From Candidatus Roizmanbacteria bacterium RIFCSPHIGHO2_12_FULL_38_13 (lineage in GTDB: Bacteria; Patescibacteriota; Microgenomatia; UBA1406; GWC2-37-13), in the NCBI GenBank assembly GCA_001789555.1, contig MFZZ01000009.1, positions 1,093 through 47,549 of the forward strand: 46,457 bases of DNA, read 5' to 3'. Below, piece after piece: positions 644 to 28,233 of this stretch (its first letter is position 1; each line of letters opens with the position of its first letter). The notes below the pieces were generated by a model. That model had not been told where the DNA came from. It was given only the letters and a program-made list of their open reading frames with translations, and did not search any database. The position numbers and the translations under genes are program-made.

Positions 644-818
644 AAATCGTATAGCGTGTAACGTATAACGCGAAACGTTAGAACTTATAACTCTTTATAT
701 ATTAACCAACGGAACAGGTGGCGTGAGCCAGAGACCTTGACCAAATGCGGGCTATCGTTACGCATTTGTCGAGGTGGCGAGCGACAGAATCTGGAACGCG
801 ACTATACTGGATTCCGGA
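644..818. repeat. Intergenic hairpin repeats between aroD and aroC
   Basis: The gap holds degenerate short phrases (GTATAGCGTGTAACGTATAACG type) at 646-700. Next is a long imperfect hairpin at about 720-790, whose arms include CCTTGACCAAATGCG and CGCATTTGTCGAGG. Last is a palindrome at 811-831, ATTCCGGA-tcaag-TCCGGAAT, flanked by CTGG and GACA. The last part belongs to the same hairpin family seen at 18250, 19368 and 28174, and it runs into the 3' end of aroD. Confidence 0.75.
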
Positions 819-1496
819 TCAAGTCCGGAATGACAATATTGTATTGTAAATATTTTTTAATTCTTCGATGCCAATCTGCCCCGGCGCCGACTCTCCAAAC
901 TCCGTTGACGCATATGTCAAATAACTTCCAAGCAAAGGTACCAATATTCTCGTCACTCTCCCTTTTTCTCCCATCCCAATTACAATCCTTTCTTCGTTAT
1001 GCGGTTTATTTGTAAGCAATCTATAAATTTTTGTGGTTTCATATTCTTCAGTTAAAACAGTTGCAATTTTTAAAATATCAGGTTTAAATTCATTCATCTC
1101 ATAAATGATGCTTTGCATGTCCCAATAACTTGGAGTTTCAACAAAATTGTGATAGGAAATAATCAGCTTAGTATTATCTCGTTTAAATTGATATTCTTTA
1201 ATCGTTGAAAGTTCAATATCAACATGATCAAATCCTAGCTCAATTGCTTTTTGTAAAATTCCTACACGGTTATTTTCGTCACCGTTAAATTTTCCACCTT
1301 CTTCTTTTTTTCTGCAAGTAAAAATAGATTGCACGTTTGTTTCTTTGCGAATGACTTCAACATTTGTTTCAGTAAAATCCTGAATATAATCGACTCGTAA
1401 TTCTACAAAATCCGATATTTCTTCTGTCTTTTTTAAGTTTGACAAAAAATCATCAAGTGTTGTTCCGATAACGGGTGTACAAATGCGTATATTCAT
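819..1496 (-). CDS. aroD: 3-dehydroquinate dehydratase, type I
   Basis: Dehydrates 3-dehydroquinate to 3-dehydroshikimate through a lysine Schiff base. At 225 residues it has the usual type I length. Visible family features are the ELRVDYI strand, TCRKKEEGG, the histidine segment ISYHNF and the Schiff-base lysine region DILKIAT, then the GESAPGQIG loop near the C-terminus. It starts 3 bases after aroE stops. The last codons (SFRT and the stop) lie inside the palindromic repeat at 811-831, so the repeat supplies the stop codon. Confidence 0.95.
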   Translation of the reverse strand: MNIRICTPVIGTTLDDFLSNLKKTEEISDFVELRVDYIQDFTETNVEVIRKETNVQSIFTCRKKEEGGKFNGDENNRVGILQKAIELGFDHVDIELSTIKEYQFKRDNTKLIISYHNFVETPSYWDMQSIIYEMNEFKPDILKIATVLTEEYETTKIYRLLTNKPHNEERIVIGMGEKGRVTRILVPLLGSYLTYASTEFGESAPGQIGIEELKNIYNTILSFRT

Positions 1497-16353: not shown

Positions 16354-17442
16354 TTACGTAAGGTGTTCGTTTTTTGTACCTTGGAAACTTTCAACCAACT
16401 TTTTAATTTCTTTCACCGCTGATTTTTTTGCAACCAGGACAACATCATGTGTGTTTACTACTAGTATATCATCTAGACAAACGCCGACAACTAACTTTTT
16501 ATCTTCATAATTGTAAACCAGATTATCTTCGGATTTCTGCAACAAGACATGACCTTTCGTAATATTGTCATTACGCTCCTGTTCCAGAGCTTCTTTCAAA
16601 GCCTCCCAGGCCCCTACATCGCTCCACCCTATATCTTCAACGACCACATAAGCTTTTTCCTTATCAAGTTGTTCAAGAATAGCGTTATCAAAACTGATCT
16701 CGGGCATTTCCGAGTAATGATTGGCAAGTCTGTCTCTAAAAGCTTTATTTTCGTGATCGTTGCCAATAATTTTTTGCATAACTTCATAAATATTTGGAGA
16801 GTACCGCTTAAATAAGCTGTAGATAAAGGATGGAGTCGAGACAAAATAACCTAAGTTCCAGCAATGATGTTTGTCCTTAAAATATTCATCTGCTGTCGTC
16901 TGGTCGGGTCGATATTTAAAACCTTCAAAACTATGAAATGCCACATCGCCCTCATTCATTATCTTCGCACCTGTCTGTATCCAGCCAAGATTCTCCGAGG
17001 CGAACCTAGGTTTTTGTCCGATAAATATTATGCGTTCCGCGTCTTTTTTGATCAGTTTACTGGATTCGAAAATGATATGCTTAAAAACTTCAATTTGTTT
17101 GACCAGATGATCGCTCCAGAGGATAATGACAGGCTCATGAGGGAAACGTAAAGAGAGATATCCCATCATCAGGGCAACTGCCGGACCAACGTCCTTTTTA
17201 GCAGGTTCGGCAATGATATTTTCATGAGGTACAAAAGGCAGCTGTTCTTTGATAAAATTGACATATTCTCCTCCAGTTGAGATAAAGATGTCTTCGGGTG
17301 CAAACTCGGGCAACAACCTTTCGGTCGCAAGCTGTAAAGTAGATTTATCACCAATTACTTTTTCAAACTGCTTGGGAGATTTTTTCCTTGAAAGAGGCCA
17401 AAGCCTCGTGCCAACACCGCCTGCAAATATTACTGCCTTCAT
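16354..17442 (-). CDS. manC: Mannose-1-phosphate guanylyltransferase
   Basis: Makes GDP-mannose from GTP and mannose-1-phosphate. Nucleotidyltransferase signature FAGGVGTRLWPLSRKKSPKQF at the N-terminus, later NLGYFVSTPSF, SFDNAILEQ and DIGWSDVGAWEAL. At 362 residues it has only the pyrophosphorylase domain, not the fused isomerase of long ManC/AlgA proteins. It supplies the nucleotide sugar for the neighbouring glycosyltransferases. Confidence 0.93.
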   Translation of the reverse strand: MKAVIFAGGVGTRLWPLSRKKSPKQFEKVIGDKSTLQLATERLLPEFAPEDIFISTGGEYVNFIKEQLPFVPHENIIAEPAKKDVGPAVALMMGYLSLRFPHEPVIILWSDHLVKQIEVFKHIIFESSKLIKKDAERIIFIGQKPRFASENLGWIQTGAKIMNEGDVAFHSFEGFKYRPDQTTADEYFKDKHHCWNLGYFVSTPSFIYSLFKRYSPNIYEVMQKIIGNDHENKAFRDRLANHYSEMPEISFDNAILEQLDKEKAYVVVEDIGWSDVGAWEALKEALEQERNDNITKGHVLLQKSEDNLVYNYEDKKLVVGVCLDDILVVNTHDVVLVAKKSAVKEIKKLVESFQGTKNEHLT

Positions 17443-17486: not shown

Positions 17487-18683
17487 CTACAATCTACTGA
17501 CATTGTTTTTAAAGCTATCAATAAACTTTATTTTGGAAAATTTCTCAAAAAACTTAACATTAACCTTTCTATTGTATGACACTTTCATAAATCTTTCAAA
17601 CCCATCTCGAAGTGCGGACGTTGTCTGCTTGTCAAAAAAAATTCCCGACATTTTTTCGCTGACTGTTTCCAAAGCTCCGCCCCCCAGATAGGCTATCACC
17701 GGACAGCCAAAAAACTGCGCTTCAAGTGCCACATATCCGAAATCTTCCTCCTGCAGCATGATGAGCGCTTTGGCATTTGAGTAAAGTTGTGCCAACTCAA
17801 GATCGGTGATATTTTCGAAAAAACGGATATTTTTTCCGGCTAGATTTTGGAGTTTTGGTTTTTGCGAACCTGTACCGACAATAATCAGCTGTTCTTTACG
17901 TTCATTAAAAAATTCAATCACAAGATCGACCATTTTGTAAGGCTCAAGTCGAGAGACTGCAAGATAATAATTTTCATGAATGTCATTGCGGACTTGATCC
18001 GGAATCTCCTTAGATCCTGAAATCAGCTTCGGCGAGGTTTCAGCGAGACGAGCGAGTTCAGGATGACAATTTAATGAATTTTTGAGACCGCTCCAATAAT
18101 CAATATCAAACGGCGGATACAAAATTTCGGACTCGCGTCGATAATATTTTTCACAGCGTTGAGCGACATTTTTTGAAATTGAAATAATCCGATCCGGCCT
18201 TTGTGCCGCCACATAGTCCCACTCTCTCAATTTTGACATATACGGCGATGTCATTCCCGCGAAGGCGGGAATCCAGTTTTTTGTATAAATATCATGCTGC
18301 GACCAAAGCCACCTCGTCGGAGTGAGTAAATAACAAATATGTTGCGTCCCTGGTTTGGTAATAATGCCTTTGGCAAAAGATGATGTAATAGAGATTAGCA
18401 GATCATAATGCGAAAAATCAAAACTTTCAAACGCATAAGAATAAAAAGGAAGAGAAAGGATTCTATTATTTTTTATGAAAGAAGGAAGTTTTTGAATAAA
18501 TGAAGTATGAATTTTACTATTCTTAAATCTTAAATCATAAATCCAAGTGGCTTTTTTCTCATCAACATACGAGGTAAACCAATCAGCTTCAGGAAACATT
18601 TCATGAAAAGTAAGAAGTACCCGCTCGACTCCACCCCACTTGTCAAGCCAATCATAGACTATAGCTATCTTTTTGCCCGTCAT
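17487..18683 (-). CDS. GT4-type glycosyltransferase with two repeat-derived insertions
   Basis: 398 residues, WbaZ-like mannosyltransferase group by pattern. The N-terminus is IAIVYDWLDKWGGVERVLLTFHEMFP, then LLTPTRWLW, SISKNVAQR, LAVSRLEPYKMVDLVIEFF, and EEDFGYVALEAQFFGCPVIAYLGGGALETV at the C-terminal donor site. Two stretches look foreign: NWIPAFAGMT (residues about 136-145) and CHPELARLAETSPKLISGSK...IPDQVRNDI (about 206-234). These are translations of palindromic repeats that fit loops between fold elements. A TATAAT lies 5 bases before the ATG. Confidence 0.9.
   Translation of the reverse strand: MTGKKIAIVYDWLDKWGGVERVLLTFHEMFPEADWFTSYVDEKKATWIYDLRFKNSKIHTSFIQKLPSFIKNNRILSLPFYSYAFESFDFSHYDLLISITSSFAKGIITKPGTQHICYLLTPTRWLWSQHDIYTKNWIPAFAGMTSPYMSKLREWDYVAAQRPDRIISISKNVAQRCEKYYRRESEILYPPFDIDYWSGLKNSLNCHPELARLAETSPKLISGSKEIPDQVRNDIHENYYLAVSRLEPYKMVDLVIEFFNERKEQLIIVGTGSQKPKLQNLAGKNIRFFENITDLELAQLYSNAKALIMLQEEDFGYVALEAQFFGCPVIAYLGGGALETVSEKMSGIFFDKQTTSALRDGFERFMKVSYNRKVNVKFFEKFSKIKFIDSFKNNVSRL
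17981..18068. repeat. 88-base palindromic element inside the glycosyltransferase gene
   Basis: Ends are TGTCATTGCGGACTTGATCC on the left and GAGTTCAGGATGACA on the right. The right end read in reverse (TGTCATCCTGAACTC) resembles the left, so the unit is an imperfect inverted repeat. It stays in frame and encodes the CHPEL...VRND peptide. Confidence 0.8.
18250..18276. repeat. Palindromic repeat inside the glycosyltransferase gene
   Basis: Core ATTCCCGC-gaag-GCGGGAAT at 18253-18272, flanked by GTC and CCAG. The same core is seen at 28174 (ATTCCCGCGCAGGCGGGAAT) and, diverged, at 19371. It is translated as NWIPAFAGMT. Confidence 0.88.
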
Positions 18684-18714: not shown

Positions 18715-19260
18715 TCAGAATGGATAGCCTTTTAATCCTTGCACTCCTTTGATCGCCGATATCTCTCCGGCTAGATTGTTGATGTGGCCGATGACGACCA
18801 TTGACAAAGCCCATGAAAGAGGTTTTTTTCCCATCCCCCACGAACTAAAATCGATTTCATCAGTCAAATTATCGTCTGTTAAGGTGTCCAGATATTTATC
18901 AGTGGCTGCGTAAACTGCTTTTGCATATGTACGTGCTTTGGCAAGATCGACTTTGACTTTTTTTGACCAGTCGGCATGTTGTTTTGACCAGTCATCACTC
19001 GGCCCCGGCATCGGCTCGCTAAATCCGGTTTTATCTTTATATTCAGACATAAAAAGAGGTTGCGTCTTGCCCAACATCGAGGCAAATCCGTCCTCACTAA
19101 AAACCGCGTGTCCATAGGCGGCGCCAACCGGCAAAGCCGTGCCAATTTTTTGAAAATGGGCATGATCCTCGCCTGTCCCTTCAATAGTACCTTCAAGCAC
19201 CTCGTGCGCCATAGCTAACTGTTCTTTGAGAAGTTTGATACATTTTTTGTTGTCTTCCAT
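18715..19260 (-). CDS. DinB-like superfamily protein
   Basis: 181 residues. The four-helix pattern and the spaced histidines (AAYGHAVFSEDGF and VVIGHINNLAGEISAIKG near the C-terminus) fit the DinB/YfiT-like metal-binding superfamily, whose members often act as thiol-dependent transferases. The specific function is unknown. It stands alone between the glycosyltransferase and a MITE-like element. Confidence 0.65.
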   Translation of the reverse strand: MEDNKKCIKLLKEQLAMAHEVLEGTIEGTGEDHAHFQKIGTALPVGAAYGHAVFSEDGFASMLGKTQPLFMSEYKDKTGFSEPMPGPSDDWSKQHADWSKKVKVDLAKARTYAKAVYAATDKYLDTLTDDNLTDEIDFSSWGMGKKPLSWALSMVVIGHINNLAGEISAIKGVQGLKGYPF

Positions 19261-19331: not shown

Positions 19332-19518
19332 ACCAATTTGTGAGAGTTCACGGTCTCTGACACAGGTTGTCATTCCCTCGAAGGAGGGAATCCAGACTAA
19401 ATATACCTTTATAGGGTATTAATGGACTAGATCCCCGTCTTCACGGGGATGACACAAAATATTAATTGACATGTTATGATACAGTTTTGTCAAGATTTGT
19501 GAACTCTTACACCAATTT
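19332..19518. mobile_element. MITE-like element with terminal inverted repeats and 8-base target duplication
   Basis: Direct repeats ACCAATTT (19331-19338 and 19511-19518) flank inverted ends GTGAGAGTTCAC (from 19339) and GTGAACTCTTAC (to 19510), 11 of 12 matched. No transposase fits in the ~172 bases. Nested inside is the two-hairpin repeat at 19368-19454. The structure is seen directly; mobility is inferred. Confidence 0.72.
19368..19454. repeat. Two-hairpin palindromic repeat nested in the MITE-like element
   Basis: Left hairpin TGTCATTCCCTCGAAGGAGG... and right hairpin ...GATCCCCGTCTTCACGGG..ATGACA are inverted copies of each other, each a stem by itself. The plan is the same as the 28174-28233 unit. 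Confidence 0.85.
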
Positions 19519-28162: not shown

Positions 28163-28173
28163 AGTTGTCAATC

Positions 28174-28233
28174 GTCATTCCCGCGCAGGCGGGAATCTAA
28201 TAACTGGATCCCGGATCGAAAGTCCGGGATGAC
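28174..28233. repeat. Two-hairpin palindromic repeat between two glycosyltransferase genes
   Basis: Left stem ATTCCCGC-gcag-GCGGGAAT and right stem ATCCCGGA..TCCGGGAT, bounded by GTCAT and ATGAC. It fills nearly the whole gap between the genes and shares its plan with 19368-19454. Confidence 0.88.

Follow-up and report, generated by a model that had tools for sequence, protein, structure and literature searches.

Two REP-type palindromic repeats lie in frame in predicted loops of a glycosyltransferase gene of a Roizmanbacteria-like genome

The window analysed here, a stretch of 46,457 nucleotides, contains a glycosyltransferase gene that carries two palindromic repeats at sites termed loop 1 and loop 2 (Table 1). 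At loop 1, positions 18249–18278 of the minus strand encode NWIPAFAGMT (residues 136–145) around a family A hairpin that is perfect over 28 bp and folds with a z score of −3.75. At loop 2, positions 17982–18068 encode CHPELARLAETSPKLISGSKEIPDQVRND (residues 206–234) within a dimer in which a family B element faces a family C element, both ends reading TGTCAT from the outside inward. An earlier note had claimed two palindromic repeats translated in frame inside this one gene; both are present at these positions, and the reading frame is uninterrupted and open across them. The extra apical segment of the family C half was not found as an exact copy among the other fetched repeat loci. The stability of the whole 88-nt dimer is unremarkable (folding z = −1.0), so its status as a repeat rests on recurrence, and folding was dropped as evidence for it.

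Table 1. Repeats and host gene in the window
Feature	Coordinates	Strand	Basis
Host gene, GT-B fold, family-4-like glycosyltransferase, 398 aa, intact ORF	17487..18683	-	ORF reading, Pfam, AlphaFold, Foldseek
Family A REP-type hairpin (TGTCATTCCCGCGAAGGCGGGAATCCAG on the plus strand), read as WIPAFAGMT (residues 137–145), loop 1	18249..18276	-	Recurrence, folding, translation
REP dimer, 88 bp, outward TGTCAT ends, loop 2 between two Rossmann domains	17981..18068	-	Recurrence, translation
Family B half of dimer (TCATTGCGGACTTGATCCGGAATC); minus strand encodes EIPDQVRND	17983..18006	+	Copies elsewhere in genome
Family C half of dimer (TCATCCTGAACTCG...TTTCAGGATC), ~30 extra nt in apical loop; encodes CHPELARLAETSPKLISGS	18014..18068	-	Copies elsewhere in genome
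Family A pair, opposite orientations, intergenic, upstream of minus-strand gene 18715–19260	19368..19454		Pattern search
Family A copy, intergenic	28173..28200	+	Pattern search
Family B copy, 3' end of minus-strand 225-aa ORF 819–1496	810..835	-	Pattern search

The assignment to a GT4 fold with intact flanking motifs largely holds. Foldseek searches with the host-gene model return GT-B/GT4 enzymes (MshA, BshA, HepE), and the Pfam glycosyltransferase domain is intact on the C-terminal side but matches only weakly on the N-terminal side. The AlphaFold2 model, built from an alignment of 77 sequences, has a mean pLDDT of 91 and a pTM of 0.90. Confidence drops in the linker between the Rossmann domains, where mean pLDDT is 46–51 for residues 211–230 (below 50 for residues 213–224) and 46–69 across residues 211–240, and the loop-2 peptide is accordingly predicted to be a disordered linker. 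Around loop 1 (residues 131–150) pLDDT is 82–85, and the end of WIPAFAGMT forms the start of a long, fairly confident modelled helix. Judged by pLDDT, the model places both peptides in a putative surface or linker loop, as the earlier note had expected.

All three repeat families are dispersed through the genome, which measures 1.2 Mb and is represented by a metagenome bin of 46 contigs, 89% complete. The window holds four copies of the family A core, where shuffling predicts 0.00 (none in 100 shuffles). Genome-wide there are 23 matches to family A (up to three mismatches allowed), six to the family B half and 53 to a generic family C pattern, with zero matches for the reversed-pattern control in each case. 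Absence of the repeats elsewhere in the genome, which the earlier note had named as grounds for giving up its reading, is therefore not what is seen. The families differ in their end tetranucleotide, which is CGTC in 45 of 48 family C copies, TGTC in 18 of 21 family A copies (CGTC in one), and split 3 and 3 between CGTC and TGTC in family B.

Mapping from fetched stretches around the copies yielded 75 distinct copies of families A, B and C, 52 of them outside long ORFs and 23 inside. Given a coding density of ~0.86 (ORF proxy), genes are depleted of copies (p ~6e-27), and intergenic sites are strongly preferred. Of the 23 intragenic copies, 22 are in frame with ORFs 190 aa or longer; one of these 22, in TsaD, probably precedes the true start. 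The copies are read in several frames, each of them open; family A appears as WIPAFAGMT, SFPRRRES, DSRLRGND or VIPAxAGIQ, and family C as HPELxSGS or HPEFISGS in 8 of 12 cases.

The proteins that carry these peptides include TrmD, LeuRS, YchF, RecJ and TatD, which were identified by sequence recognition together with PDB matches, and whose alignments to PDB structures gap or break at the REP peptides. Further carriers, named by sequence recognition, are transketolase, a P-type ATPase, a PurN/PurH-like fusion, a PolX-like protein, ribosomal protein L1 (in an N-terminal extension), and ComEC-like and SpoU-like proteins. The search for the peptides in other proteins of the genome, which the earlier note had proposed, is thus positive, and with it the likeness to the coding palindromes of Rickettsia stands: the repeats recur genome-wide, many conserved proteins contain them in frame, and most homologues lack these particular peptides. 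The double occurrence in one gene is real for the glycosyltransferase but not unique to it, as a methyltransferase carries two family C repeats, YchF (L076:776-1987) two or three separate repeat-derived peptides, and TatD (L077:963-1886) three adjacent ones. Peptides of the latter two proteins include GDPGSESGMTQ, RHPELVSGSKRDPDLHRDDD and SSSAKASERRGEV.

The family A peptide DSRLRGND occupies matching positions in two O-antigen-ligase-like paralogues (L007:781-2916 and L010:3-1328), which suggests that this insertion is older than the gene duplication; one of the two has additional repeat-derived residues. A second class of dispersed repeat, a 7-bp tandem of TTACGAG/TTACGAA, occurs at ~10 loci genome-wide and is translated in frame (LRVTSYE-type) in a transketolase-like gene (L068; G000:C15:1975-2042 and 2221-2247).

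Homologues of the glycosyltransferase are found in 94 of the 96 genomes searched, the present genome included. Eighty named loci, mostly from Candidatus Roizmanbacteria and Woesebacteria, were fetched, and 78 distinct homologues were aligned and scanned with a library of REP cores. It yields 19 matches, spread over 12 genes (reversed cores, 0), all near residues 47, 129–137 or 201–226; the other 66 homologues have none. Loop 1 holds family A in four genes, with the same WIPAFAGMT-like peptide and frame in all four and the same place in three. Loop 2 holds families B/C, D, E and F in different lineages, and family B occurs near residue 47 in two homologues. Most of these repeats recur within their own genomes, with the exceptions of a family D element found once only (G043) and a weak match (G057). 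The earlier note had counted the same peptide at the same positions in homologues from unrelated organisms against its reading; some homologues of the same family do share it or carry other REP peptides in these loops, so that this refuting outcome is in part observed, but most lack it.

The sites of these repeats mostly coincide with regions where the protein varies in length. Length-variable regions defined on the 66 REP-free homologues cover 19% of core columns, and 12 of 15 gene-site combinations start within them (binomial 5e-7, with homologues counted as independent), the remaining three lying within four residues of such a region. Families A, B/C, D, E and F, clearly different from one another, thus share the same length-variable loops. 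In two homologues (L031, L042) a YELR-type sequence, similar to the product of the 7-bp tandem, fills loop 1. In five homologues with no REP match (L043, L109, L114, L125, L131), loop 2 is often low-complexity sequence of the NSKFEIRNSKF type (AAATTCGAAATTC), so seemingly empty homologues may hold a repeat-derived loop 2 as well. One relative encodes the glycosyltransferase and a C-terminal part in a single 772-aa frame (L105:3001-5316); that part resembles the neighbouring mannose-1-phosphate guanylyltransferase-like gene (window 16354–17442).

Comparison with homologues lacking the peptides, also proposed in the earlier note, gives different results at the two loops. Loop 2 is longer where a REP is present (25–42 aa versus a mean of 20; p = 2e-6). 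Loop 1 is not (24, 26, 28 and 38 versus a mean of 26; p 0.15): homologues read YxKN, seven residues, SPY, and the window gene reads YTKN-WIPAFAGMT-SPY. Against L056, for example, YFKN-PLIKFAL-SPYLSEL stands opposite YTKN-WIPAFAGMT-SPYMSKL, an exchange of seven residues for nine with a net gain of two. The near length-neutrality of loop 1 misfits a simple insertion model, and a clean insertion there is rejected; an exchange of this kind would follow from an insertion offset by a later deletion, or from a repair-type swap.

Taken together, the observations are best explained if both stretches are dispersed CGTC/TGTC-tagged REP-type repeats that landed in a glycosyltransferase of this Roizmanbacteria-like (Microgenomates) genome, a reading to which we assign a probability of roughly 0.88. 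Such palindromes would land inside the gene and persist where the frame used is free of stops and the receiving surface or linker loop tolerates changes in length. They would behave as small non-autonomous selfish elements, most of them intergenic and a minority surviving as in-frame loop segments of conserved proteins; related lineages would have taken repeated hits in the same loops. The peptides would then be translated as parts of an enzyme that stays active, most likely as neutral passengers with no catalytic role, and the mobilising enzyme may have been lost or may not be encoded beside the repeats. That the palindromes arose by chance, or through faulty assembly of the metagenome bin, is scarcely credible: the idea can point to incompleteness (89%) and fragmentation into 46 contigs, but the shuffled and reversed controls, which yield zero matches, reject it, the ORF is unbroken, and repeats of this kind recur in the same gene of related genomes that were assembled independently. 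A functional role, with the peptides recruited from repeats and selected as regulatory, binding or localisation sequences, is very improbable. It could draw on the WIPAFAGMT-like peptide that four genes share at loop 1 and on the fairly confident helix that part of it is predicted to begin. Most homologues lack WIPAFAGMT, however, elsewhere the frames and families differ, unrelated proteins contain the same peptides, and the loop-2 peptide is modelled with low confidence, as expected of a disordered linker. The occurrence of the same and other REP peptides in the loops of homologues is in keeping with selfish repeats having inserted again and again where loops are tolerant, not with a conserved functional peptide.

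A single REP insertion per loop in the ancestor of the clade, followed by vertical inheritance and divergence instead of repeated hits, appears unlikely. A glycosyltransferase tree from which the loops were left out places the window gene as sister to a clade of seven (SH-aLRT 88), which comprises the three other genes with family A at loop 1 and four without it. This grouping, together with the shared frame and, in three genes, the shared place of the repeat, favours one ancestral event, as does the preference for common origin in the case of the Rickettsia elements RPE-4/-6/-7 (PMC3767692). Against it, four clade members have a loop 1 free of family A, and at loop 2 the lineages carry unrelated families (B/C, D, E and F). 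The window gene and one homologue (L057) are, moreover, identical at 25 of 25 repeat bases within flanks only 60–69% identical (third positions 37–43%); at 0.64–0.66 identity per site, such a match has a chance of 1–3e-5. An identical 25-bp stretch in such diverged flanks argues for recurrent insertion or for homogenisation between repeats, and independent insertion or homogenisation accounts for it more readily than would neutral inheritance from a common ancestor. That four homologues all read loop 1 in the WIPAFAGMT frame might point to selection acting on the peptide, or to a lone ancestral insertion maintained through homogenisation. We consider it reasonably likely that these loops are recurrent landing sites in Roizmanbacteria, which families A, B/C, D, E and F, and possibly the 7-bp tandem, have independently replaced or lengthened many times by both swap and insertion.

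How the repeats spread is a separate matter, compatible with the preferred reading of selfish REP-type repeats. Mobilisation by a RAYT (Y1 transposase), as thought for GTAG REPs, seems rather improbable here. Y1_Tnp is present in 69 of 92 genomes in the search of relatives, and the number of family A copies, patchily present in 44 of the 92, correlates weakly with the Y1 count (Spearman 0.33). Yet no Y1 transposase (PF01797) was found in the present 89%-complete genome, although the missing 11% might contain one. G021 and G056, with 6–11 copies, likewise lack a Y1 match; genomes that combine five or more family A copies with no such match number three. Across 20 RAYT neighbourhoods in relatives rich in family A, 61 kb contain two repeats of the scanned families, and two of the five RAYT genes inspected have other palindromes on both sides. 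The relatives' RAYTs are thus not flanked by the repeats described here. RAYT-like genes of relatives have palindromes of their own close by (L199:1990-2014 and 1187-1235; L205:1248-1278), TTTCCCGACCG/CGGTCGGGAAA and AGGGTCTGTCCCGA/TCGGGACAGACCCT, unlike the families studied here. The absence of a Y1 match and the neighbourhood result agree with the report of CGTC REPs without a dedicated transposase (PMC3733652).

Protein-coding palindromes are known from Rickettsia, Wolbachia and some other bacteria; the present repeats widen that range to the Candidate Phyla Radiation (CPR), and they sit in proteins that are essential to a reduced genome. The glycosyltransferase family spans many lineages and combines near-perfect repeats with strongly diverged surroundings, and so offers a test of independent hits against one diverged insertion. 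If the loops are indeed recurrent landing sites, protein loops would keep a continuing record of repeat activity. The choice between hotspot and common origin raised for RPE-4/-6/-7 would then lean toward a hotspot, as clearly different families at one loop favour that side. For annotation, IPAFAGMT, HPELVSGS and PDQVRND in CPR proteins should be recognised as repeat-derived, as they can mislead motif and homology searches. No relevant report of REPs or palindromes in CPR was found among the open-access papers searched.

Among known systems, the elements described here resemble neither RPE-1 of Rickettsia nor the GTAG REPs/REPINs in full. RPE-1 shares the property of a palindrome translated inside conserved proteins, and the enzyme Gmk retains its activity with such an insert (PMC2229807), but RPE-1 is a 105–146 bp element of another kind with no REP dimer; the present elements, at 28 and 88 bp in a Microgenomates genome, fall outside it. 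GTAG REPs/REPINs with RAYTs are likewise dispersed non-autonomous hairpins, but they bear another tag, and the combination of a GTAG tag and a REP-flanked RAYT that defines them was not found in this genome.

The kind of element is known from CGTC-tagged REPs and from RPE-4/-6 of Rickettsia. CGTC-tagged REPs are palindromes of 20–40 bp with CGTC at one end, found as singles and dimers, mainly intergenic (BMC Genomics 2013, PMC3733652), with no dedicated transposase and with intragenic copies, some in frame in conserved genes (PMC3733652). Double REP insertions in one gene have been published for R. conorii and O. terrae, as has the case of Xanthomonas recB, where different REPs occupy roughly one position. 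The present repeats match in being short palindromes in many dispersed copies, single or dimeric, predominantly intergenic, sometimes genic in frame, doubly inserted in some genes, and with no dedicated repeat-flanked transposase seen in this genome or in the RAYT neighbourhoods of relatives; they differ in the CPR host, the mostly TGTC tag of family A and the expanded apical loop of one element. For Rickettsia palindromic elements, PMC2229807 cites Ogata et al. (2000, 2002), and that review of in-frame RPEs describes an RPE-bearing enzyme, Gmk, that stays active (PMC2229807). For RPE-4/-6/-7, hotspot and common origin are both stated, common origin being favoured and hotspots not excluded (PMC3767692). 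The likeness extends to short palindromes with an ATGAC end motif, an in-frame position within conserved ORFs, probable solvent-exposed placement and different groups at nearby sites in orthologues. Homologues without the peptide are likewise found, namely 66 of the 78 glycosyltransferases and the PDB homologues of five other proteins. The differences lie in the phylum, the shorter single elements and the clearly distinct families at one loop. To these known systems, the present repeats add a CPR host, breadth across essential genes, the replacement seen at loop 1 and loops that have been used repeatedly.
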